Made by a program: the position numbers and the translations under genes | From: a virus | DNA: 64,000 nucleotides | Reading direction: 5' to 3' (one strand) | Virus record (IMG/VR): IMGVR_UViG_3300027792_000013 | Span: 1 to 64,000 of that record | Shown here: positions 46,789 to 63,822 of the stretch, piece after piece | How positions within the stretch are numbered: position 1 is the stretch's first letter | Layout: every line of letters begins with the position of its first letter | The notes under the pieces: generated by a model | What the model saw: the letters and a program-made list of their open reading frames with translations, nothing else | What the model was told of the DNA's origin: nothing | Databases searched by the model: none

Positions 46789-48642
46789 TTAACCGTCCTT
46801 TCTACAATTTTTACAATATGCTATATCACCATTTTTTATAGCATTTCTAAGTTTAGTATATCTATCTCCGTTCCAAATCTCCTCGAAACTCTGTTTAAAA
46901 ATATTTCCCATAATCATTTTGGACCAACAGCAAGGAGTAACCACACCCTTAGAATTAATAAAAAATTTAGTATAAACCCAGTCACAATTTTTTATTTGTT
47001 CAGATAAGTTTTGAACTCTTTGAGTTGATCCAACTTGGGTATCAAAGTTAAAAATGTTAAATTGAGCTCCGATTTTTTCCGCATATGCTTTCCATTCAAT
47101 AATTTTAGTACGATTTTCCAGAGTATCTTTAATAATTAAATCCGGTGTATATGTTAGAGTTGGGGTCAATCCTAAACATGAAATATTTTTGTTGTAGTGT
47201 TTTGCCAATCTAATAAAACTAGGAACCTCATCAAAATTGTAGGCATTCATAACAAATGAAAAATACAAAGTCTTTTTGTATTGTTTGACGAATTCATTAA
47301 TGTTATATAAAACAACTTCTAATCCATCAACCCCCATTAACTGCTTATAAGTATGTTTGTTCAATGAATTCAATGAAACTACAACTTCATCAACAGTAGA
47401 ATTATAAATTAAATTACGATTTTTTTCATTCAGCAAATAACCATTTGTTACAAATCGAATAGGAACATTTTTATCTGATAATTTTTTAATAATATTTTCA
47501 AAATCCGGATGAGCTAAAATTTCACCATAGCCGGTAATATCAACCATTCTGGCATATTCTAAAAGGGAATCTATCCCTTTTATATCATTTAATGTTATAG
47601 TTCTTCTTTCATTTGGTTGCATTTTAGGATTATGACAAAACACACATTTGTAAATACATTTCGTGGTTAATTCCAAAAATAAATCTATACTTTTTGTTTT
47701 CATAACATGCTCCATAATTTTACCCAAAATCGTATTTTTGTAATCTAAAAAATTATTATAATCTACGTGATTTAAAAATACTTGAGAATCCGGAAATCCA
47801 GCATACCAATGAATCCCAATTGTTTTGCTAGTAAAATTTAGCTGAGATCTAATTAAAAAAAGTTCAGGAATCTGTTTATGTGTATGATATGGGTAAACAG
47901 TCATCATATCAATATTACCAACAACGCAATTTTGAAATCTCTTTTGTATTTCAGCCGGGGAACTAAACTCTTTGTTTAAAAGTTCAGATCCATGAGTTTG
48001 ATAACTATTAAAATTTATTTTGGTTCTAATAGCTTTTTGGTGGATGTATGTATAGTATTGATTTTTTGGTGAACTTAACATAAATCCGATGCTATGATAT
48101 GTATCTTTACCATTATCATTTATACTAACTATAGTATCAATATTTGCGTTTTCCGGCGAATTTAAATGCAACTCATTCATTGATCGAAAATATAAGATAT
48201 CCATATCTGACCACAACCCACCTACATTTGATAGGATGTCCCAACGTAAATAATCAGATTTTATTACCTCGGGTATTTCCCTGGGATCTTCTATATTTGG
48301 AATGTTAACATCTAATTCAAAAAATTTCAGTGGGAGTTTTCTCAATAAAAACATATAGTCATTGTTTAAATTTCTTTCAAACTTATGCTCAAATGTTGTC
48401 CATGTTTTTTTCTCACTTAATGTCAAAGGTGAATAAAATCTAATTTCCCAATCCGGATTGTATTTCATAAACGAAAACACTGTTAAATATTTTAAAAAAG
48501 GCAGAGTTTTAGCTCCCCAATAAAAATGAACTATTTTAGGAATTTTTTTCAAATACCACTCATATTTAGTTATTTTTTGGTATTCTGAAAGTCTCCATAA
48601 ATTCATATTTTGTTCGTTACGAATGGAATTCAAATCAAGCAT
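46789..48642 (-). CDS. Fusion protein: GT32-like glycosyltransferase + radical SAM/SPASM
   Basis: Residues 1-300: IPKIVHFYWGAKTLPFLKYL near 33 and YLRWDILSNVGGLWSDMDILYF near 132, with the DxD motif of GT32/TcdB-type glycosyltransferases. Residues about 318-617: LTTKCIYKCVFCHNPKM (CxxxCxxC), DITGYGEILAHPDFENI, then SKGVVTPCCWSKMIMGNIF and CKNCRKDG as SPASM. Both halves are complete and the join is in frame with no gap. It should transfer a sugar and carry out radical chemistry, perhaps on the same product. Coupled to the 745-residue glycosyltransferase by an 8-base overlap. Confidence 0.85.
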   Translation of the reverse strand: MLDLNSIRNEQNMNLWRLSEYQKITKYEWYLKKIPKIVHFYWGAKTLPFLKYLTVFSFMKYNPDWEIRFYSPLTLSEKKTWTTFEHKFERNLNNDYMFLLRKLPLKFFELDVNIPNIEDPREIPEVIKSDYLRWDILSNVGGLWSDMDILYFRSMNELHLNSPENANIDTIVSINDNGKDTYHSIGFMLSSPKNQYYTYIHQKAIRTKINFNSYQTHGSELLNKEFSSPAEIQKRFQNCVVGNIDMMTVYPYHTHKQIPELFLIRSQLNFTSKTIGIHWYAGFPDSQVFLNHVDYNNFLDYKNTILGKIMEHVMKTKSIDLFLELTTKCIYKCVFCHNPKMQPNERRTITLNDIKGIDSLLEYARMVDITGYGEILAHPDFENIIKKLSDKNVPIRFVTNGYLLNEKNRNLIYNSTVDEVVVSLNSLNKHTYKQLMGVDGLEVVLYNINEFVKQYKKTLYFSFVMNAYNFDEVPSFIRLAKHYNKNISCLGLTPTLTYTPDLIIKDTLENRTKIIEWKAYAEKIGAQFNIFNFDTQVGSTQRVQNLSEQIKNCDWVYTKFFINSKGVVTPCCWSKMIMGNIFKQSFEEIWNGDRYTKLRNAIKNGDIAYCKNCRKDG

Positions 48643-50872
48643 TTTTAGCGTCTCTCATTTGAATCAATTTAGATGTCATTTCGTGAACATATTTCATTCC
48701 TTCTCTTTGTAATTTAGCCGATAAATTAAATGGATGTCTACGATGCCATCCACAAACTTTGGGTAAATATGCGAATCTAACACCATTTAAAACCATTCTA
48801 CAAAACATATCATGGTCTTCACAGGGAGTCAGTTGCCAATCACCAACATTTATTCTAGCATGTTTTCGCCACAACCAAATTACCCCGATATTATATCGTT
48901 CAAAAAATTTATGTGGATTCCATTCCATGTTCACTTCTTCATTATAATTTTTTCTTCGTTTTTCAATTAACCCAGTTTCATCCATTACACCAATTTCACA
49001 GCAAGTGTAAACAAAATCAATTTCGGGATGTGTATCAAGAAACATTACCATTTCTCTAAGTGCTTGAGTATAGTACTTATTATCACTGGCTATCCAGGTT
49101 TCGTATTCACCTTTACATACACTAAAACCAACATTAAGGGCACTTCCTGTACCACCGTTTTCTTTATGGATAATTTTTATTCTTGAATCCCTGATGTTGT
49201 CAATAATATTTTTTGTCTCATCCGTTGAACCATCATTTACAATGATCAATTCAAAATCTCTAAATGATTGATCTAAAACACTTCTGATTGATTCTTTGAT
49301 ATATTTAGATTGATTGAAAGTTGGCATTACAATTGAAACTTTTGGTTCTCCTTTTGTTGTATTTGTTGGCAAATGCATAATCATTCCCTTTCGTGTCATT
49401 CTTGAAGTTTGATAATGTTCAATTACAGATTCGTTAATACCTTTCATCAAATCAAAAATTTTTGTATATTCTGGTGGCAGTTTATAAACTTTAATATCAG
49501 GAAAAGCATTGACGACCTCTTGTAGATTTGTTTGTTCATTGCATTCGCTGGTATTAAGTTTTTCATTGTTTTTTTCAATCCATCTGTCAAATACAAATCT
49601 TCCTCTGTCGGTGTTTTTTACAAAAAGTGTTCCACTCAATAACTCAGTTCCATTTCTATAATGAGCGGCTAGATCACAATCAGTCAATTTAGTAAATAAG
49701 ATCGGATAAGTTTGAACTACGGCATCAGCATCAATCCAAACAATATCTTTTCCTCTATGTTTGTCCATCATTTCTCTAATAAAAGCTGCTTTGTAATATG
49801 AATTTATTCTCCAGTTCTTCCTAACTGTTGAGGGGTCATTAAGAGGTGCATAGTTTCCACTTAAAATCTTTTTGATGTCATAATCAATCCCAAATCTATT
49901 AAGCGATTCTATTAAGTTTTTAACGTTTTCTTCGTAAATTGTAGCTTCGGTAAAATAGGAAACCACTATAAATTTATTGGGGATATTAAATTCAAGTTTG
50001 TTATAATCAATAAAATCAAAACAACGAAGACGGGATTTTTCATTTGTATTAAATATTTTAAATCCCTCTTTTTTATATGTATTAGCAACTATCTCAAATT
50101 GTTTTACGTAATCCAATAAAACATTTTCATTTAGATTTGCTAGAGGATATCCGGCATGGTGATGAGTTTTTTCTGGTTCAACATAAAAGTCATAGCCTAA
50201 CAAATAGATTGGATTAGCGCCTAAAGCTAGAGCCAAAGACAATCCAGAAAATCCACTACAATTACCGCCAAAAATTCCTTTAGAAAGATCTAGACTCAAA
50301 CCATGGGGCCCTAAGTATGGAATTGTATATACTTCAGGACCGAACGGATAGTCATGAGTATCTAACCACGTTTTAAGTCCTTTATACTGATTGTATAATG
50401 CCTGATTTTCCGGTCCTAGTTTTGAAGCCTGAATCCATCTATAAAATCTTGAGTCACAACTATGCATAATTGGAGCAAACATGCAGGTTTCAAAACTACG
50501 ATTTAAAGCAATTATTTTTTCTGATTTTAATTTTGATATTTCTAATTGACTAACACTTGTACCACCACCAATAATAAAACATCTTTGATTTTTCCAAGCT
50601 CCACTTGTCATTATGTCACTTAAAAGTTTCTTTTTATTTGGTTGTGGTACCGGCGAAGATGATTTTGGTTTATTTACATTTTGTCTATGAGCATCTAAAT
50701 GTTTTTGCGAAACTATTGGTTGTTGTCCTGGTCTAGCTAGCATATTTTTGTATCGTAAATCTAGCCCTTCTGGTAAATTTGTGTTAATACCTACCTTAAT
50801 TTTATAAACCTTTTTTTCCGACGTTACTTCTAAATTCCATGGAGTTCCCAATAAATTAATATAGTCGGCCAT
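48635..50872 (-). CDS. Three-domain protein: DUF115/MptE-like + GT-A + GT2 glycosyltransferase
   Basis: Residues 1-90 are unassigned with a Pro/Ser linker. Residues 95-290 match DUF115/MptE-like sugar-chain enzymes (CFIIGGGTSVSQLE, IALNRSFETC, YLLGYDFYVEPE). Residues 305-500 look like a nucleotide-sugar transferase with DIVWIDADAVVQTYP (DxD, near 380). Residues 508-745 are a GT2 enzyme: VSIVMPTFNQSKYIKESIRSVL near 512 shown as VSIVMPTFNQS, LIIVNDGSTDET and WRRKHP-type end. It is the first gene of the glycan island and probably builds the glycan core. Confidence 0.82.
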   Translation of the reverse strand: MADYINLLGTPWNLEVTSEKKVYKIKVGINTNLPEGLDLRYKNMLARPGQQPIVSQKHLDAHRQNVNKPKSSSPVPQPNKKKLLSDIMTSGAWKNQRCFIIGGGTSVSQLEISKLKSEKIIALNRSFETCMFAPIMHSCDSRFYRWIQASKLGPENQALYNQYKGLKTWLDTHDYPFGPEVYTIPYLGPHGLSLDLSKGIFGGNCSGFSGLSLALALGANPIYLLGYDFYVEPEKTHHHAGYPLANLNENVLLDYVKQFEIVANTYKKEGFKIFNTNEKSRLRCFDFIDYNKLEFNIPNKFIVVSYFTEATIYEENVKNLIESLNRFGIDYDIKKILSGNYAPLNDPSTVRKNWRINSYYKAAFIREMMDKHRGKDIVWIDADAVVQTYPILFTKLTDCDLAAHYRNGTELLSGTLFVKNTDRGRFVFDRWIEKNNEKLNTSECNEQTNLQEVVNAFPDIKVYKLPPEYTKIFDLMKGINESVIEHYQTSRMTRKGMIMHLPTNTTKGEPKVSIVMPTFNQSKYIKESIRSVLDQSFRDFELIIVNDGSTDETKNIIDNIRDSRIKIIHKENGGTGSALNVGFSVCKGEYETWIASDNKYYTQALREMVMFLDTHPEIDFVYTCCEIGVMDETGLIEKRRKNYNEEVNMEWNPHKFFERYNIGVIWLWRKHARINVGDWQLTPCEDHDMFCRMVLNGVRFAYLPKVCGWHRRHPFNLSAKLQREGMKYVHEMTSKLIQMRDAKNA

Positions 50873-55474: not shown

Positions 55475-58045
55475 TTAAAACATAGTTTTCAATGAAATTT
55501 TTTCGGGATTAAAAAATTTGTCATGAATTGTCCAACCACATACTTTTCCTAAGTTATCTAAAGGATGTAAAAACGTTTTTTCGAATTGAGTTTCATAATC
55601 TATAGATTGGTCTAAACCCAACTCGGGAGGTAGAATAGTTAAAAACGCTATTACATTTTCCCCAATTTTGTTTGGAGTTTTAAGATAAATAAATTTAATT
55701 TTGGTTTTTTCCTGAATTAATCTATATTTCCCCAATAGGTTTAATTTTTTAATCCAGTAATTATATAATAGAGATCCTCTGACATGAATGGGGGTTGCTT
55801 TGGCATAAATATTTACATCGTCTCCATATTTTTTTAATCCTTGAACAGATCTTGGAAATGCGATTTCATCTGGTTTCATTTTATCATATTCTTCCCAAAA
55901 CTTCTTTATGCCAGACATTATTTTTTCCTCTGATTTCAGAAAAATATCATTCACAATTTCCTTTAATTTTGTTCTGATGACCTGCGGGGTGGAAGATCTG
56001 ACAATTTCAATTCCGGTAACTTTTAATGTTGGGGGATCACAAATTATATCTTCGTCAATATATTTCTGAATAATATATTTCTTTTTGGCTACAAAAAGAC
56101 CTTTTCCAACAACCTCTTGTTTCATAACAAGAGATTTTTTATAGACATTCAATATCGAATAAATCTCTTCAATTGCTTTTTCAATATATTTCGACACTTT
56201 TTTGTCACCAAATTCTTTTACAAATTTAGCGATTTCAGTATCTGACAATCCCGGTGATAATTTATTTGTCAATTTTGAACAAGAAATATATTCGGAATCT
56301 GTATCACAATAAACAACATCGATATGATCCTTTAAATTAGCTTTCAAATATTCCTCAATAAACCGAACTACATATTGACCTGTACATGTAATAGCCGAAG
56401 CAATTCTAATATCAAAATATCTAAATTTTTCATTTGCAAATGCTCCGTATCCGCTATTTAATAGAATTTTCAAAGCCTGTTGTTTCAAATCCAGACTTTT
56501 ATATAGAGATGTTTTACTTTTTGCGGATTTCATTTTCTTTTTGGTTTCTACTCGATCATTGTAAATGGTCTCCATAATATCACCAAAAATAGACGATTGA
56601 TCTTTTCTATAAAATTGTAAATTTGCTGTCATTGTTAAATTCTTTTCTTGTAAAATTGAAGTATCAACTTTTCTGAAAATCAAATTGTCCAATATAGAAT
56701 TATCGTCTTTTTTTGTTTCATCATAAAAACAAGCTAAAGAATCTATTCCAGGATTGTTAGGAAAAATTTTTGAAATCAAATCTTTTCTTGTATCCTCATC
56801 TGTTATTAGAGTCTGAGGAGAGATATTGCAATCAATAATAACATTTGGATACTCAGAATTTACATCGTATGAAATTACCCAATCATGAAACCCAATTTGT
56901 GGTTCTCTGACATATCCACCGGGATATTCTTCCTTTCTTGAATCTTTTTTAAAAGGCGGAACTATAAGATTTCGTTTTTTCTGCTCATTGTAAACAATCA
57001 CGTCCCAGACCTTTACGGCTGAAAAAATATCACAAAAAAGAACTTTGGCAGTATAAGCAATTGTTGTAGCTAAATTCAATAACTGTAATTTTTCTTCCAA
57101 AAGATAAACTAATTCAACATCATAGATATTATATTCGACAAACTTTTGTTTGTCATTTAAATAGAATTCATCTAAAGAATCTTCGTCAAACTTAACTTTT
57201 TCTTTGTTAAGTTCGACTTGTGAAATATGCGATAATGAATATGATTCCCTTGTTGTTGGTACATACTTTTTGTATAGATCCAAATAGTCTAAAATAGGAA
57301 TATGAAAATCCCAATGAGACAATCGACTTCCATTCACAAAAGATTCAATGGGATTGACATGCCCAATAGGACTCAAATCGTTTAAAACATTTGATCCAAT
57401 TACTTTGCAAATCCGGTTGGTTAAATATGGGATATCAAAATATTGGACATTCCACCCGGTAATAATATCCGGAGACAAAGATTTTATGACGTGAATAAAT
57501 AACTCCAAAAGTTCCCTTTCAGTTGTGACTTGTTTGAATTGAATTTTTTCTTTATCTATGTCTAATTGACATTTTGAAGTTTCAAAGGGGCAAGTACTTA
57601 AAACAAAAAATGATTTCGTTATACTATCTTTTATAGTAATCGAAGTAACCGGATATAATGCATCCTGTGGTTCAGCAAAACCTTGACTATTTGAAAAAAC
57701 TTCGATATCAATATAAACAGTTTTGATAAAATCTAGATTCCAAAATACTGATTGTTCTTCTCCCCATCTTGAATTAATAAATTGATATACTGGCGAAATT
57801 TCCCCATATAATGGAACATCTAGTTGTTTTTGATCATTTTTAAAATTATGATATTCTTTGATCGATAAACTATGTTTTTTCAAAAATTTATTATCAGTCC
57901 CTATATATTCAGTGGGTATTTGTGCCAAAGTATAGATTTCCGGATAAAAAATAACATCTCGTTTAAATTTCTTACCGGTTTCATTGTAACCAATACAACA
58001 TAAACTGTTACCGTTTGAAATCACATTTGTGTAAAATTCTTTCAT
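55475..58045 (-). CDS. 43: DNA polymerase, family B, T4 gp43-like
   Basis: The 856 residues (T4: 898) include the 3'-5' exonuclease (TVYIDIEVFSNSQG near residue 110, DIITGWNVQYFDIPYL near 195, EYNIYDVELVYLLEE near 305) and the polymerase domain: YDVNSEYPNVIIDCNISP (motif A near 390), KILLNSGYGAFANEKF (motif B near 525) and VVYCDTDSEYISCS (motif C near 580). All catalytic acids are present. It is coupled by ATGA to the DpdA-like gene upstream, so polymerase and base-modifier are made together. Confidence 0.93.
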   Translation of the reverse strand: MKEFYTNVISNGNSLCCIGYNETGKKFKRDVIFYPEIYTLAQIPTEYIGTDNKFLKKHSLSIKEYHNFKNDQKQLDVPLYGEISPVYQFINSRWGEEQSVFWNLDFIKTVYIDIEVFSNSQGFAEPQDALYPVTSITIKDSITKSFFVLSTCPFETSKCQLDIDKEKIQFKQVTTERELLELFIHVIKSLSPDIITGWNVQYFDIPYLTNRICKVIGSNVLNDLSPIGHVNPIESFVNGSRLSHWDFHIPILDYLDLYKKYVPTTRESYSLSHISQVELNKEKVKFDEDSLDEFYLNDKQKFVEYNIYDVELVYLLEEKLQLLNLATTIAYTAKVLFCDIFSAVKVWDVIVYNEQKKRNLIVPPFKKDSRKEEYPGGYVREPQIGFHDWVISYDVNSEYPNVIIDCNISPQTLITDEDTRKDLISKIFPNNPGIDSLACFYDETKKDDNSILDNLIFRKVDTSILQEKNLTMTANLQFYRKDQSSIFGDIMETIYNDRVETKKKMKSAKSKTSLYKSLDLKQQALKILLNSGYGAFANEKFRYFDIRIASAITCTGQYVVRFIEEYLKANLKDHIDVVYCDTDSEYISCSKLTNKLSPGLSDTEIAKFVKEFGDKKVSKYIEKAIEEIYSILNVYKKSLVMKQEVVGKGLFVAKKKYIIQKYIDEDIICDPPTLKVTGIEIVRSSTPQVIRTKLKEIVNDIFLKSEEKIMSGIKKFWEEYDKMKPDEIAFPRSVQGLKKYGDDVNIYAKATPIHVRGSLLYNYWIKKLNLLGKYRLIQEKTKIKFIYLKTPNKIGENVIAFLTILPPELGLDQSIDYETQFEKTFLHPLDNLGKVCGWTIHDKFFNPEKISLKTMF

Positions 58046-59253
58046 TCAAATATTTCCTTTAGATCATGTTTAATTGTATCTTCTTCAAATTTGTTAAAAA
58101 CCATTCCACTTTTAATTAACTCGTCAAGTTTTTTTCCTTTTGGTAAATCAAATATTTTGTCAATTAATGTAAAAATAAAAATATCATTTCGAGGAAAAAT
58201 GTCTCTTATAATTTCTTTTGAATTCAAGAAAAGTATATTTTCTAACTCAGTTTTATCTTTTATAAAGTGATACAAATTATGCAAGGATAAAAAACTATAA
58301 AAACGTGTCGTAAATGCCTGATTTTTTTCGTTAAATTCTTGATATATATGTCGCCAAGTTAAACCTTCACAAACTGGACAATCACAAGGTAGTGGAATAT
58401 CTAAATTAAGATGGTCAATTGAATCTATCTGTTTTGTTATAGTTAATTTGCTCGATTTAAAAATAGAAGTTTTGTAAGACCCGAATGCCGATGATAATAT
58501 AGGTGATGATGAATCGTATGAAATTTTGCATTTATACCCTAATTGATTTAGTTTATGTTGAAAATAAATCAACATGCGCATAATTTGATATGATGTTGCT
58601 CCAAAAATATGAAAAATTTTTCCTTTGCTGTTAAATCTATCAAATTCCCCGGATTCTAAAAACATAATAAGAGCATACAAAGTTAAAAATATATTTCGTG
58701 ATACAGATCCAATCGCCCACCCACCACTAAAATTAAAATCCTTGACTTTCTGATACCACGTAATCAATTGATCGATGCTTCTTCCTTGTAAAACATTCAT
58801 AAATTTTGTTTTGTTACTTTGATGAGTTTCAAACCATTGAAAATTAGAAAATGACATTTCTAAACATTCTTCAAATGTTTTTCTTCTGTTTCCTTTACTA
58901 GATGATATAAATGGTGGTATATCCAAATTTGGAGAGTAATTGGTATTTTCTTCTAACCAATCAAATATTTTTTCTCTAATCTCATCAGAATATTCTAAGT
59001 AGTCCGTAGTTATTTGATATCCACCAGAATCTCCCATCACTAATGTTTTAGTTAAGTCAATTTTTAATATTTCCTTAACCAAATTTGGTTTTTTATAATT
59101 ATGTCCGGCCGAAAACATAATTTTGTCATAATGAAAAATAGAATTTTCTTTATTGAAAAATCGCATAGACTTTTCTTTTATTAATTTATCAGTAATCATT
59201 TCATCATATAAACATCCTGTCGATATTGCTGGAATATATAAAGTTCTATTCAT
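58042..59253 (-). CDS. dpdA: DNA 7-deazaguanine transglycosylase, DpdA-like (TGT superfamily)
   Basis: The 403-residue protein has a TGT-type barrel: IMFSAGHNYKKP, VMGDSGGYQITTDYL (residues 72-86), NLDIPPF near 110, MNVLQGRSIDQL near 150, GGWAIGSVSRNIF near 180, and a zinc site LPCDCPVCEGLTWRH near 290. These fit phage DpdA, which exchanges guanine in DNA for a 7-deazaguanine base. Bacterial and archaeal TGTs act on tRNA instead; phage context, the lack of a PUA domain and linkage with polymerase and FolE favour DpdA. Class I promoter upstream. Confidence 0.82.
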   Translation of the reverse strand: MNRTLYIPAISTGCLYDEMITDKLIKEKSMRFFNKENSIFHYDKIMFSAGHNYKKPNLVKEILKIDLTKTLVMGDSGGYQITTDYLEYSDEIREKIFDWLEENTNYSPNLDIPPFISSSKGNRRKTFEECLEMSFSNFQWFETHQSNKTKFMNVLQGRSIDQLITWYQKVKDFNFSGGWAIGSVSRNIFLTLYALIMFLESGEFDRFNSKGKIFHIFGATSYQIMRMLIYFQHKLNQLGYKCKISYDSSSPILSSAFGSYKTSIFKSSKLTITKQIDSIDHLNLDIPLPCDCPVCEGLTWRHIYQEFNEKNQAFTTRFYSFLSLHNLYHFIKDKTELENILFLNSKEIIRDIFPRNDIFIFTLIDKIFDLPKGKKLDELIKSGMVFNKFEEDTIKHDLKEIFE

Positions 59254-59276
59254 TTAATGACCTACCTTATTTAATT

Positions 59277-59305
59277 ATTATACCAAAAAACTTAAAAAAA
59301 CTTTC
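59277..59305 (-). promoter_or_regulatory. Class I promoter (GAAAGT-N17-TATAAT)
   Basis: -35 GAAAGT (59305-59300), 17-bp spacer, -10 TATAAT (59282-59277), driving dpdA and polymerase. The leader contains AAGG before ATG. Confidence 0.6.
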
Positions 59306-59331
59306 TTTTTTTAGTAGAAAAATATATGTTT

Positions 59332-60339
59332 TCATATATACTCCTTGATTTTTTCAAACCCAACAAATTTATTAATCAATATTTGTCTTTGTATTTTTAA
59401 TAATTCATCCAATTTATTTTTATTCATTGAGTTAATTTGTTTGACAAAATGCAAAAACGTTTTAATTATTTCATTGTCGGATAAGAGATTCTCATATTTA
59501 AATTCTGATATATACATTTCTTCGTAAGACAATCGATTTGGAATAAATGGAACCACATCTAAAAATACTCCCTCAACAGCACTTATACCAAATGTTTCTT
59601 GAAGATTGGCACTAAATAAAAATTTACTACTCGTTAGTAATTTATAATAATCTTTTTTTGTTTTGCATTCTTCTAAACTAACAACAAAAGACATGTCTTT
59701 TATTTCATTTTTCATTCTCCTAAATAAGTCAATTCTTTTTTCCACTGATAGTCTATGTGGAAAAATTACCTGATTTTTCTTTAAATCACGATCCATTTTA
59801 TACTTATTTAAATAATCTATTTTGTATGGAAATCCAACTACTTTTATTTTGTCTTTATATGTATTCCCAAAATTATTTATGATCATTTTTTTATGAAAAT
59901 CAGTTGTAACAAAAGATATGTCGGAACAATCTAATAAACTTTTTTCAAATCCATTGAAATACTTATTTGCACCAACTAATCCTAATAAATCATATGGATC
60001 ATAACTTCCAGCATGCCAATAAGAATAGATTTTAATATTAATTCCACTTAAAAGTGACATATATTTTACTGCTATAATCCCATAATGCCAGGCATCATAA
60101 AACAAAAATTTATCATTTGGTTTAATTAATTTTTTATTGAATAAATCTGCCATTTTACTAATTTGTTCTGATTTCCACTTATTAGTATTAAAAATATCTA
60201 AAAAATTTTTGTTATTACTTATACCAGATCTAGTTTTTCCGTCTATTTCAATCGAGTCCGGAAATTCTTCTTTAAACCATACTTTCCACTGTTTTGTATA
60301 TCTTGTCTCTAATGGTTCCAATGTAACTAAATATAGCAT
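59332..60339 (-). CDS. GT-B glycosyltransferase, GT4-like
   Basis: The 335-residue protein has DKFLFYDAWHYGIIAV in the N-terminal domain, then KVVGFPYKIDYL, VIFPHRLSVEKRIDLFRRM and NLQETFGISAVEGVFLDV (the E-x7-E type donor site) in the C-terminal domain, as in GT4 enzymes. GGAGG lies at 5 bases from the chosen ATG. It sits between dpdA and a second glycosyltransferase, next to a deacetylase gene. Confidence 0.78.
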   Translation of the reverse strand: MLYLVTLEPLETRYTKQWKVWFKEEFPDSIEIDGKTRSGISNNKNFLDIFNTNKWKSEQISKMADLFNKKLIKPNDKFLFYDAWHYGIIAVKYMSLLSGINIKIYSYWHAGSYDPYDLLGLVGANKYFNGFEKSLLDCSDISFVTTDFHKKMIINNFGNTYKDKIKVVGFPYKIDYLNKYKMDRDLKKNQVIFPHRLSVEKRIDLFRRMKNEIKDMSFVVSLEECKTKKDYYKLLTSSKFLFSANLQETFGISAVEGVFLDVVPFIPNRLSYEEMYISEFKYENLLSDNEIIKTFLHFVKQINSMNKNKLDELLKIQRQILINKFVGFEKIKEYI

Positions 60340-60359
60340 ATTAACCTCCATAATCTATT

Positions 60360-61091
60360 TTAATATATATATTCAATATCTTTAATAGACCAACCATCTT
60401 TTTTTAAAGAAATTCCATAATTATTTACTTTTTTACTCCAAGCCAATTCAGATACCCACTTTTTTTCTGAATAACTATATCTAAGATGGTAAATACTATC
60501 ATTACAAAATATATAGTGAGGTTTTATTTTTTTATGTTTGAAAATTAAATCAGAAAAAACAAACCAATCTATTGTTTTTTTAGTATTTAATAATTTTTTT
60601 AAAATAACAGTATCTTCTATAAAAGTATCATATTTTTGTAAATAACAACATCCCAACATTGAAAGATAAATATCATCATTTACAAACATCGGTGCTTTTC
60701 TGATTCCTATATCAACTCTATTTTCTATAAATGACATATAGACTATGTTTTTATTTTCCACAAATTTTAAAATGTTTTGAATAACTTTTTCATTAAAAAT
60801 AAAATCATCGTCAAAAATAAAGTAGTTTTTACGATTTAAATTATTCATATATTTAAGCATGTAATAAGTAGTTTTATTTATATTGCCACCACCTAATCCT
60901 GAAAATATATTCCACTTTTTTATCATCAATACTTCGAGTAACTTTTTCTGAAACCCAGTTAAGTCATTTTCCCCATCTTTGATTACTAACAAATTACCAA
61001 CAGTATTAAATGTTGATAGTACTGTTAAAAAAGCAGTAAAACATTCATACCCAAGAGTTCTTACCACAATTGTAAAATTTTTTTCTTTCAT
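60360..61091 (-). CDS. GT-A fold glycosyltransferase
   Basis: The 243-residue protein begins FTIVVRTLGYECFTAFL, with NLLVIKDGENDLTGF near residue 33, a Gly-rich region, and RKNYFIFDDDFIFNEKV near 88, a DDD metal site. The end contains WFVFSDLIFKHKKI and a WSKKVNNYGISLKKDGW segment. It fits a GT2-like family, though the exact group cannot be set. Acceptor unknown. Confidence 0.7.
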   Translation of the reverse strand: MKEKNFTIVVRTLGYECFTAFLTVLSTFNTVGNLLVIKDGENDLTGFQKKLLEVLMIKKWNIFSGLGGGNINKTTYYMLKYMNNLNRKNYFIFDDDFIFNEKVIQNILKFVENKNIVYMSFIENRVDIGIRKAPMFVNDDIYLSMLGCCYLQKYDTFIEDTVILKKLLNTKKTIDWFVFSDLIFKHKKIKPHYIFCNDSIYHLRYSYSEKKWVSELAWSKKVNNYGISLKKDGWSIKDIEYIY

Positions 61092-61097
61092 ATTTAT

Positions 61098-61727
61098 TTA
61101 CATAAAAAGATTAAACACTTTATCATTTTTAAACCATAATCTTTCACAAAAAAGATTGTTTTTATGTAAATAAAAATACAAGCTATTTATTAAAGAAATA
61201 TCAATCTGTGATTTATATAACATAACCAATCTTATTTTATCAAAAATATCTATATTAATAAATGCATGATTAAAATTATTATTTTTTAAAAAATCATTGG
61301 TTTTAAATTGTACATTATCGGCATATGGTAAATCCTCATAAAAAATTAATTTATCATCGGGTAATATATTTTTAAAAGTTTCAAAGCATATAACATGATC
61401 TATATGTTCTTCAATTGATAATGGCAAGAAAACGAAATCATACCAACATAAATTTATTTTAACATCTATGTTTATTTTTAATTTCGAACGTAACTTAGAA
61501 TCTAAAAAATTTAAGTGAATATAATTTGCATTTACATGTTTACAGAAACTTTTGTCTTCTTGTAATCTTGTATTATATGGATTTTCCGATTTTATATTTT
61601 CATTTAATAGATAATTACTTTTATTAAAAACCGTTAAAATAGTTTTTTTACCTATTATTCTTTGTATAGATCCACCAATAGAAAAAGCAATATCATCGAA
61701 ATGTGGTTGAACAAATAATATCTTCAT
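61098..61727 (-). CDS. PIG-L/LmbE-family deacetylase
   Basis: The 209-residue protein opens ILFVQPHFDDIAFSIGG (the PH-DD zinc motif, residues 7-12, with Ile where Glu is common) and has LPLSIEEHIDHVICFE near 106 (the H-x2-H motif). The family removes acetyl groups from GlcNAc units in GPI, mycothiol, bacillithiol and antibiotic sugars. Lying next to a GT4-like enzyme, it suggests a two-step GlcNAc transfer and deacetylation. Coupled by ATGA to the gene upstream. Confidence 0.8.
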   Translation of the reverse strand: MKILFVQPHFDDIAFSIGGSIQRIIGKKTILTVFNKSNYLLNENIKSENPYNTRLQEDKSFCKHVNANYIHLNFLDSKLRSKLKINIDVKINLCWYDFVFLPLSIEEHIDHVICFETFKNILPDDKLIFYEDLPYADNVQFKTNDFLKNNNFNHAFINIDIFDKIRLVMLYKSQIDISLINSLYFYLHKNNLFCERLWFKNDKVFNLFM

Positions 61728-62167
61728 TTTTTGTAATCTACCATATATTTTTCCCAGTCATTATAACTAAAAGAATCTGAAATAAATATACCATCAATTG
61801 ATTCTATTTTTAAAGATACTTGATTTATATTACTCAAAGTCAGATTATTAGTTTTTAAAGTAAATATTTTATGAATGTAGTGATTTGATAATATATAAGC
61901 CGGTATCTTAAAAATTTCATCTATTTCATATTCAGCAACAATGATATATTTATTTACATCTATTGTTGATAAAAATTCAAATAATTCTTTATTGTCTATT
62001 TTTGATTGATTACATGCTCCAAAATAAATCCTTTTAATATCCACATCTTTTTCTAGTATATTTTTAATTTCATTTAGAGAAAAAGATCCTTTGACAAATA
62101 AAGTTTTGATTTTATCTTTTTCTATCCCTTCAACTTCTACCGATACAAAATAAGGTTTATCTAACAT
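61724..62167 (-). CDS. Hypothetical protein in the second modification island (147 aa)
   Basis: ATG at 62167 overlaps the radical SAM gene by 11 bases; two earlier ATGs overlap more. The protein alternates strands and helices (LFVKGSFSLNEIKNIL, YIIVAEYEIDEIF, SLKIESIDGIFISDSFSYND), like a leucine-rich or solenoid-type fold. It is found only in this setting in the window. Function unknown. Confidence 0.58.
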   Translation of the reverse strand: MLDKPYFVSVEVEGIEKDKIKTLFVKGSFSLNEIKNILEKDVDIKRIYFGACNQSKIDNKELFEFLSTIDVNKYIIVAEYEIDEIFKIPAYILSNHYIHKIFTLKTNNLTLSNINQVSLKIESIDGIFISDSFSYNDWEKYMVDYKK

Positions 62168-62873
62168 TTTTTTTCTCACTTTCACCATGATCATTGCTGT
62201 ATCCTAAACAAGTTTCACATTTTTTAATAATTCTATTTTCAATATTCGTTTCCCAAATATTCCCCAAAACACAATCACTACTATCATCAAAACACTCACA
62301 ACATCTTACTATTTTACCATTAGATAGTACTACCACCTCATTATTTACAAGAAAAGAACAATTTTTGAAATCACTCCTTTTCTCTGTATTATTTAATTGA
62401 CCCAGGTCCCGCAATCGTTTGGTAAAACATTTGAATCCATTATTTAAAAGATCTAGTATAATGTCTTTATATTTTTCTTCGTCAAAAAATAATATATTTA
62501 TTTTATCTTTGTCATTTTTTATTTCACTCAAATTTTTAATTGAGTTATAATTGTGAAAGGAAATGTATAATTTACTTAACCCCATTTTTATTAAAGACGA
62601 AAAATTACTATTAGTTAATAGAATTCCATTCGTATTTAATTCAACTTTTATTTTTTTATTATTTAATACTTTTATTGTATATAATAATATATCTAATTCC
62701 AAAAGACTTTCTCCAAAATGATGTAATCGTACTTTTTTCGATGTGATAATATTACATATATGGTCTATCACATCTTTATCAATTGTTTTAATAGGTCTTG
62801 TCATCGCACTTCTTGGGCAATAATAACAACTTAAGTTACATTTATTTGTTATTTCAATTTGATATATATTCAT
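62157..62873 (-). CDS. Radical SAM protein with SPASM-like C-terminus
   Basis: The 238-residue protein opens MNIYQIEITNKCNLSCYYCPRSA (here CNLSCYYC gives CxxxCxxC), with LHHFGESLLELD near residue 50, ELNTNGILL near 78 and a C-terminal set (NCSFLVNNEVVVLSNGKIVRCCECF; VLGNIWE; CETC) of SPASM type. It is too unlike QueE, which has a longer loop in its Cys motif, for that role to be assumed. It ends coupled to the next gene. Confidence 0.8.
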   Translation of the reverse strand: MNIYQIEITNKCNLSCYYCPRSAMTRPIKTIDKDVIDHICNIITSKKVRLHHFGESLLELDILLYTIKVLNNKKIKVELNTNGILLTNSNFSSLIKMGLSKLYISFHNYNSIKNLSEIKNDKDKINILFFDEEKYKDIILDLLNNGFKCFTKRLRDLGQLNNTEKRSDFKNCSFLVNNEVVVLSNGKIVRCCECFDDSSDCVLGNIWETNIENRIIKKCETCLGYSNDHGESEKKNVR

Positions 62874-63206
62874 CTAATAATACTCTTTTAGTGATCCATT
62901 TTCATTATCTTCTGATATTTCAATTTTAATTTTTCTTTTAGGAAATTTGGTGGAAATTTTTTTATAAAAAAAATCAGATATTGCCTCACAAGATTTGTTA
63001 TTAAGATTCTTATTTTTTATTAAAGATTCTACGAAACTTTTGAATAAAAAGAACTCTATATCACGATCATTGTGGAAAACTTCTATCCATATTTTTACAT
63101 AAAAAATATGACGGTGGATATTTTTTAAAAATTTTACTTCTGGTGGGGCATCTGTATATCGATGAAACCCAACAAAATTAGTAGTAATCCATATAAAACT
63201 ATTCAT
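62874..63206 (-). CDS. QueD-like (6-carboxytetrahydropterin synthase-fold) protein
   Basis: The 110 residues follow a phage/bacterial QueD-like pattern: WITTNFVGFHRYTDAPPEVKFL, here shortened to FVGFHRY-DAPPEV, NIHRHIFYVKIWIEVFH near residue 32 (H-x-H), DIEFFLFKSFVES, SCEAISDFFYKK near 78 and IEISEDNENG at the end. QueD makes 6-carboxytetrahydropterin on the preQ0 route. The zinc His set differs from standard QueD, so it could be a diverged form. It follows folE by one base. Confidence 0.72.
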   Translation of the reverse strand: MNSFIWITTNFVGFHRYTDAPPEVKFLKNIHRHIFYVKIWIEVFHNDRDIEFFLFKSFVESLIKNKNLNNKSCEAISDFFYKKISTKFPKRKIKIEISEDNENGSLKEYY

Positions 63207-63207
63207 T

Positions 63208-63822
63208 CTATTTCTTAATGTAATGTAAAAATTCTTCTTTTGTACTAATATCAAGAAAACAGCCTTTTAATGAAGTAGTTATCATCCAGGCATTCGGTTC
63301 TTGAATTCCTCTGATCTGCATGCAACCATGTTGAGCTTTAATATAAACTCCACATCCTACCGGTTGAAGTTTTTCATCAATGAACTCCGATATTTGTTCC
63401 GTTAATTCTTCTTGAATTTGTGGTCTTTTGGTAAACCAATCAACAATTCGAGCCAGCTTAGAAATGCCAGTAATTAGCTTATTGGGAATGTATCCTATAT
63501 AAGCCTCACCAACAAATGGGACAAAATGATGAGAACATAATGAATTTACGCGAATTGGACCCAAAACAATCATAGAGTTAATCTGTTTGGTATTGACGAA
63601 AAATGTTATCTTTGGAGACGGTTCATAACAGCCTTTTAAAAGTTCCCTAACATACATTTTGGCAATTCTTTTAGGGGTTTCGTTTAAATTTTGATCTAAA
63701 TTCATATCAAATCCCAAGATCTTTAAAATTGATATAAAATGAGTTTGTACTTCGTCTTCCATGATTTTCAATTCAGATTCCGTTTTTATCTTATTGTCAT
63801 TCGCAATTCCTAGTCCTGGCAT
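63208..63822 (-). CDS. folE: GTP cyclohydrolase I, FolE
   Basis: The 204-residue protein has the FolE core: LNETPKRIAKMYVRELL near residue 45, VNSLCSHHFVPFVGEAYIGYIP near 92 shown as SLCSHHFVPF-GEA-IGYIP with the zinc Cys and His, LARIVDWFTKRPQIQEELT, and AQHGCMQIRGI near 165 (second Cys). It turns GTP into dihydroneopterin triphosphate, the first step for 7-deazaguanine synthesis and for folates. Class I promoter and AAGGAG are upstream. Confidence 0.9.
   Translation of the reverse strand: MPGLGIANDNKIKTESELKIMEDEVQTHFISILKILGFDMNLDQNLNETPKRIAKMYVRELLKGCYEPSPKITFFVNTKQINSMIVLGPIRVNSLCSHHFVPFVGEAYIGYIPNKLITGISKLARIVDWFTKRPQIQEELTEQISEFIDEKLQPVGCGVYIKAQHGCMQIRGIQEPNAWMITTSLKGCFLDISTKEEFLHYIKK

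Follow-up and report, generated by a model that had tools for sequence, protein, structure and literature searches.

A Candidate QueC-Free Phage Operon for Sugar-Bearing 7-Deazaguanine in DNA

The Locus and Its Genes

The window analyzed here is the first 64 kb (64,000 nucleotides) of a 115,928-bp, possibly incomplete virus record, IMGVR_UViG_3300027792_000013, and our subject is a minus-strand gene run at its far end, which we lean toward reading as an operon that makes 7-deazaguanine from GTP, inserts it into phage DNA, and then adds a sugar. The phage is T4-like, its terminase being nearest to those of cyanophages (e.g., Synechococcus phage S-PM2, ~41% identity). Followed from 66.0 down to 55.5 kb, the genes encode QueD, QueE, two small open reading frames (ORFs), FolE, a QueD paralogue, a radical SAM protein, a small protein termed family U, a PIG-L protein, a 243-aa ORF, a glycosyltransferase (GT), DpdA, and DNA polymerase. 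From QueD to the polymerase the intergenic gaps run from -47 to +78 bp, all on the same strand, which is shared by the queE and queD genes sitting 0.7–2 kb past the window edge. The genes that carry the argument are as follows.

55475..58045, minus strand: family B DNA polymerase, T4 gp43-like (PHROG 262, E 2e-231; PF00136, PF03104)
58042..59253, minus strand: DpdA-like DNA-guanine transglycosylase, 403 aa (D75, D247, H215; CxCxxC zinc motif)
59332..60351, minus strand: glycosyltransferase, GT-B, family-4-like (PF00534 in 9/15 family members; co-occurrence)
62874..63206, minus strand: QueD-fold paralogue (PHROG 17812, E 1e-19; structure model)
63208..63822, minus strand: FolE, GTP cyclohydrolase I (PF01227, E 9e-54; TIGR00063 above cut-off)
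64747..65490, minus strand, in the record beyond the window: QueE (TIGR03963, E 1e-29, below the curated cut-off)
65492..66001, minus strand, in the record beyond the window: QueD proper (TIGR03367, E 2e-13, below the curated cut-off)

An original prediction for this stretch had dpdA translationally coupled to the polymerase gene, with folE upstream on the same strand, and both points hold, the dpdA and polymerase genes overlapping by 4 bp. It had also put these genes under one promoter class, a claim that finds no backing in the sequence: sigma-70-like matches in 55–64 kb number 63 as against 69.5 ± 8.3 in shuffled sequence, and the window holds 12 T4-late-type TATAAATA boxes where shuffling leads one to expect 12.9. 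Two conserved dpdA partners, the GT and the small protein at 61724-62194, had escaped it.

DpdA and the Predicted 7-Deazaguanine in DNA

Taken as a single sequence, the product of 58042-59253 matches PF01702 at E 0.004 and TIGR00432 at E 3e-5, the latter below its curated cut-off. A profile of its family recovers the catalytic domain of the tRNA-guanine transglycosylase (TGT) superfamily, with E values of 3e-5 for archaeosine TGT, 0.002 for queuine TGTs, and 0.04 for the solved DNA-guanine transglycosylase. Alignment with the experimentally tested DpdA of phage 9g pairs D75, D247, and H215 with D72, D215, and H196 of that enzyme, and among 172 relatives these residues are kept in 169, 172, and 172 sequences, respectively. 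H196 of 9g is the conserved DpdA histidine that is missing from DpdA2 (PMC6884629). None of three DpdA profiles tried joins the window's subfamily to the 9g enzyme; the subfamily takes in genes of PA5oct, Phosso, and Vibrio phage 2.275.O, and the gene of the last lies within an annotated cluster of QueF, a YhhQ-like transporter, a queuosine protein, and FolE. A single-sequence scan of viral contigs with this DpdA returned no match, whereas an alignment-based scan gave loci.

The original prediction of 7-deazaguanine DNA is well supported, because DpdA has the catalytic and signature residues, the FolE-QueD-QueE set is complete, and the gene run is linked to the polymerase. As judged from these genes, the DNA of this phage very probably contains a 7-deazaguanine.

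A QueD-Fold Paralogue Probably in Place of QueC

The gene adjoining folE was called as 62874-63254, with a better start at the ATG at 63206. Profile comparison with QueD aligned over 44 columns only, and the fold was then settled by structure search: the model (pLDDT 94) has E. coli QueD as its best PDB match (TM 0.79), which places it in the QueD/PTPS T-fold. Three zinc histidines and conserved glutamates are retained, the position of the QueD nucleophilic Cys is Leu in 140/140 relatives, and no QueD-like Asp-His pair is conserved in the alignment. This protein is, then, a QueD-fold paralogue and not QueD. The earlier label "QueD-like" was apt for the fold; the catalytic residues are missing, and the true QueD is the product of 65492-66001, whose residue set HCHHDH is canonical and identical to that of 9g QueD. 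Because the phage also encodes this canonical enzyme, the paralogue has another task.

The original prediction had both QueE and QueC either beyond the window, supplied by the host, or replaced by the radical SAM gene at 62157, and proposed a search of the rest of the genome. That search finds queE just past the window, and no match to QueC (PF06508) in the whole 115,928-bp record. The same pattern is seen elsewhere: among seven isolates carrying the paralogue, QueC is above cut-off in none, there being no match in PA5oct, Phosso, BUCT-ZZ01, RHph_I1_18, ACP17, and phiST and one below cut-off in X1. The paralogue, for its part, was not found in six DpdA phages with QueC or Gat-QueC (2.275.O, GR7B, NCTB, Peetri, 9g, and PhiXhv-12), in a search that had no positive control alongside, though the same type of search finds these families in other records; the QueC scores of NCTB and Peetri are lower, at 36 and 67 bits. 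In 30 large surveyed contigs, only QueC fragments of ≤27 bits and no full-length gene were seen, genuine QueC scoring 170–204 bits. The paralogue thus seems, on these sequence comparisons, to replace QueC, and it likely acts in its stead on 7-carboxy-7-deazaguanine (CDG). A QueC gene that merely lies elsewhere is improbable. Given that QueC is generally missing from phages with the paralogue, the route probably does not pass through preQ0.

In 2023, Cui reportedly gave the name DpdL to a decarboxylase predicted to act on CDG in phages. PHROG 17812 may possibly be DpdL; a relation to that enzyme and to phages with dDG in their DNA would account both for the lack of QueC and for what the paralogue does.

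Two further observations concern this enzyme and QueD. Streptomyces sp. NEAU-Y11 (locus L285, 7911-9633) encodes the paralogue together with QueD and FolE, with neither DpdA nor the GT; the locus may be a cluster for a nucleoside natural product, in which case a small molecule as the substrate of the paralogue would make sense. Separately, many phages with this gene set (loci between L023 and L262; BUCT-ZZ01, ACP17, phiST, and RHph_I1_18) encode a QueD that is short of one or two of the histidines that bind zinc, the residue set being FCHYDH or YCHYDH instead of HCHHDH, and two zinc ligands are gone in 48/80 aligned QueD sequences from such carriers. A mixed oligomer of altered QueD and the paralogue, with its three histidines and no catalytic triad, is conceivable.

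The Glycosyltransferase and Its Genomic Association

The gene most informative about the nature of the base is the GT directly upstream of dpdA. The window's own protein has no Pfam match by itself; the fold-family assignment comes through its family, 9/15 members of which match PF00534 (group 1 glycosyltransferases). Relatives adjoin DpdA or the paralogue in Phosso, PA5oct, ACP17, X1, and BUCT-ZZ01.

We surveyed the association in three scans of viral contigs, each anchored on another gene (paralogue, GT, or DpdA), comprising 80 loci each, and annotated with family profiles; the loci are partly related, and related phages are over-represented. Around the paralogue, the GT is present in 74/80 loci, DpdA in 69/80, and QueC in 0/80. 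Around the GT, the paralogue is found in 68 of 80 loci, and in 38/43 of those with full flanks. The DpdA-anchored scan has both GT and paralogue in all 16 loci with full flanks; over all 80 loci, many without full flanks, it has the GT in 63, the paralogue in 53, and QueC in 3. Clustering the GTs at 60% identity leaves the paralogue present in 43/49 clusters. The two genes share a strand in every pair (193/193), and no ORF of at least 90 aa intervenes in 88/175 loci. Loci with GT and paralogue usually also have DpdA and FolE/QueD/QueE, a set that we refer to as the module.

Gene order in the module varies widely among the surveyed loci, and a compact island of GT, QueD paralogue, DpdA, and QueD occurs in long Magnetospirillum bacterial contigs from several genomes (L266, L267, L268, and L271). 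Drift along one lineage is for these two reasons not a full explanation of the association. The module is found in hundreds of viral contigs, and its cultured carriers include the PA5oct/Paride group of Pseudomonas phages (P. aeruginosa PAO1) and Acidovorax phage ACP17.

Neither this record nor the complete GT-bearing genomes of X1, BUCT-ZZ01, and ACP17 yield a thymidylate-synthase-family hydroxymethylase, which removes the usual sugar acceptor, a hydroxymethylpyrimidine. In a search for Tet/JBP proteins the controls themselves were silent, and a Tet-type route to a hydroxymethylated acceptor may exist. From its genomic association, it is reasonably likely that the GT glycosylates the 7-deazaguanine base.

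Accessory Genes

Between the GT and the paralogue lie four further genes.

60360..61091, minus strand: accessory 243-aa ORF, possibly a glycosyltransferase of GT-A type (DDD motif and N-terminus, by eye only; no Pfam match)
61098..61727, minus strand: accessory PIG-L type N-acetyl-sugar deacetylase (PF02585, E 4e-9)
61724..62194, minus strand: family U small protein, divergent member (E 1.7e-10 to the family profile)
62157..62873, minus strand: accessory radical SAM protein (PF04055, E 1e-11)

Family U (~170 aa) is present in 135 surveyed loci, 129 of which have the paralogue and 130 the GT; among named phages it occurs in 13 records only (the PA5oct group and ACP17), all with GT and paralogue. 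The window's member matches a family profile built without it at the E value given above, over its N-terminal half only. A structure model of the family (pLDDT 57) has no credible PDB match.

The radical SAM gene is an accessory gene near paralogue and GT in a few relatives. It has close relatives in loci L023 and L148, and a different radical SAM gene occupies the same slot in L103. The idea that it substitutes for QueE or QueC is rejected, given the real QueE at 64747 and the better matches to maturase families, one of which is its best NCBIfam match. The slot beside the GT is taken by sugar-type or radical enzymes, which change from phage to phage: PIG-L and radical SAM in the phage studied here, radical SAM in L103 and L148, and, in L025, another GT together with a Gfo/Idh protein and an alcohol dehydrogenase. 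With such variable neighbors, the sugar may well differ between phages. PIG-L occurs in 4/27 records searched, and in Xanthomonas phage PhiXhv-12 it adjoins a distant relative of the GT.

In the latter phage (L263, 4618-8701), a gene annotated as encoding glucosamine-fructose aminotransferase in fact encodes Gat-QueC, with GATase and PF06508 fused; PIG-L, the distant relative of the module GT, and a Gfo/Idh dehydrogenase come next, and DpdA is elsewhere in the genome. This arrangement suggests a second route to glycosylated deazaguanine, one with QueC. A phosphoribosyltransferase-like gene (L012, 3459-3920), annotated in BUCT-ZZ01 as of the xanthine-guanine type, recurs near the module at ~62 loci; an epimerase and further sugar-nucleotide genes recur there as well. 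In Campylobacter phage CP220, which we take to belong to the dADG group, an amidinotransferase-like gene is clustered with five genes for radical SAM proteins (L265, 4955-11986). Outside the operon, the large ORF at 48635-50872 looks, by eye only, like a glycosyltransferase of family 2 in its C-terminal part, and an ORF beyond the window, at 97718-98182 of the record, appears macro-domain-like, likewise by eye only.

Proposed Pathway and Alternatives

The pathway that we propose would begin with FolE, QueD, and QueE turning GTP into CDG. With QueC missing, CDG would not be turned into preQ0; instead, the paralogue would process it, the likeliest reaction being decarboxylation to 7-deazaguanine. 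DpdA would then put this base into replicated DNA in exchange for guanine, and the GT would attach a sugar to the inserted base, the free base being a less likely acceptor. Further changes to sugar or base might be made here by the PIG-L deacetylase, possibly along with the products of 60360 and 62157, and the likely purpose of the whole would be shielding from host nucleases. The sequence itself shows which genes are present, that their catalytic residues are kept, that the record has no QueC, and that the set is conserved; the reaction of the paralogue, the glycosylation step, the acceptor atom, and the sugar are what we infer. The acceptor would be C7 if decarboxylation is complete and the carboxylate if it is not, so that a carbon link to the sugar at C7 is possible where decarboxylation comes first. 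That the operon as a whole makes, inserts, and glycosylates 7-deazaguanine we consider somewhat better than an even proposition.

Several points count against this pathway. Removal of the carboxyl group would leave no ordinary oxygen acceptor at C7, so that a carbon linkage or another position is needed. RHph_I1_18 and phiST have the paralogue, and this GT was not found in either; the paralogue therefore does not need the GT. As the surveyed loci are partly related, co-occurrence in part reflects shared ancestry. Finally, with a record that may be incomplete, the absence of QueC from this phage alone is no proof. The two phages with the paralogue and no such GT also speak for a rival account, in which the DNA holds plain 7-deazaguanine or 7-carboxy-7-deazaguanine with no sugar and the GT, though it travels with the module, serves some other target, be it a different base, a glycan of the surface, or something in the host; simple dDG and dCDG have reportedly been described as phage bases, by Cui in 2023. 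Against this stands the fact that distant phages, and bacterial islands too, keep the GT together with DpdA and the paralogue, as well as the immediate adjacency of GT and paralogue in half of the loci (88/175) and the presence of the paralogue in most full-flank loci around the GT (38/43). We regard a sugar-free base as unlikely, if the most serious of the competing accounts.

Host enzymes could also bear on the outcome. Many hosts encode QueC, and a phage drawing on it could carry dPreQ0, dADG, or dG+ in its DNA, with the paralogue as an accessory QueD; the 48 QueDs that have lost two zinc ligands could then mean a composite enzyme formed with the paralogue. Since the QueD of this phage is canonical, it needs no such helper, and paralogue and QueC are mutually exclusive among the isolates, which makes host-supplied QueC improbable. 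Still more so, indeed very improbable, is that DpdA is a tRNA transglycosylase altering host or phage tRNA and not DNA. It is a member of the TGT superfamily, and its family profile does fit tRNA TGTs better than the sole solved DNA-guanine transglycosylase. Yet the 9g-type DpdA histidine is present, the gene is coupled to that of the DNA polymerase, QueC, which is required for queuosine (Q), is not in the record, and the only tRNA gene found there is a tRNA-Met(CAT), which is not of the Q type.

Comparison with Known Systems

Phage systems of the 9g type comprise FolE, QueD, QueE, Gat-QueC or QueC, and DpdA1 (Hutinet 2019, PMC6884629). The operon described here resembles them in FolE, QueD, and QueE, in a DpdA with the same aspartates and signature histidine, and in the linkage of the gene run to DNA polymerase; it differs in having a QueD-fold paralogue and a GT instead of QueC, and a DpdA of a distant subfamily. 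Another parallel in gene content is Mycobacterium phage Bipper, which has DpdA, FolE, QueD, and QueE without QueC, and for which CDG was suggested as the inserted base (PMC6884629). Here, too, the preQ0 genes are present without QueC. That CDG can lead to a decarboxylated 7-deazapurine without QueC has a precedent in tubercidin biosynthesis, in which the FolE, QueD, and QueE homologs stop at CDG and a decarboxylation is proposed to follow (PMC6112128). There, the decarboxylase is of the UbiD type and acts after ribosylation, and the product is a free nucleoside antibiotic (PMC6112128), whereas the candidate here has a QueD fold and the product would be a DNA base.

With respect to glycosylation, the obvious comparison is with the T-even phages, since here, too, a GT is proposed to place a sugar on a modified base of phage DNA. 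The T-even DNA glucosyltransferases act on hydroxymethylcytosine, which is put in as the nucleotide. The acceptor proposed here is, by contrast, a 7-deazaguanine inserted after replication; the hydroxymethylase family is absent from X1, BUCT-ZZ01, and ACP17. In the 7-deazaguanine modifications known from DNA the added groups are small, and the familiar glycosylations of DNA take place on modified pyrimidines; we found no report of a glycosylated 7-deazaguanine in phage DNA in the open-access literature.

Put most broadly, there is perhaps an even chance that the module is a widespread phage system in which a glycosylated 7-deazaguanine replaces guanine by a QueC-free route, relying on a CDG-processing enzyme of QueD fold, on DpdA, and on a glycosyltransferase dedicated to DNA. 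If so, a guanine analog bearing a sugar would bring both strategies together and let phages shield G with a bulky group, and work would be assigned to two uncharacterized families, PHROG 17812 and family U.

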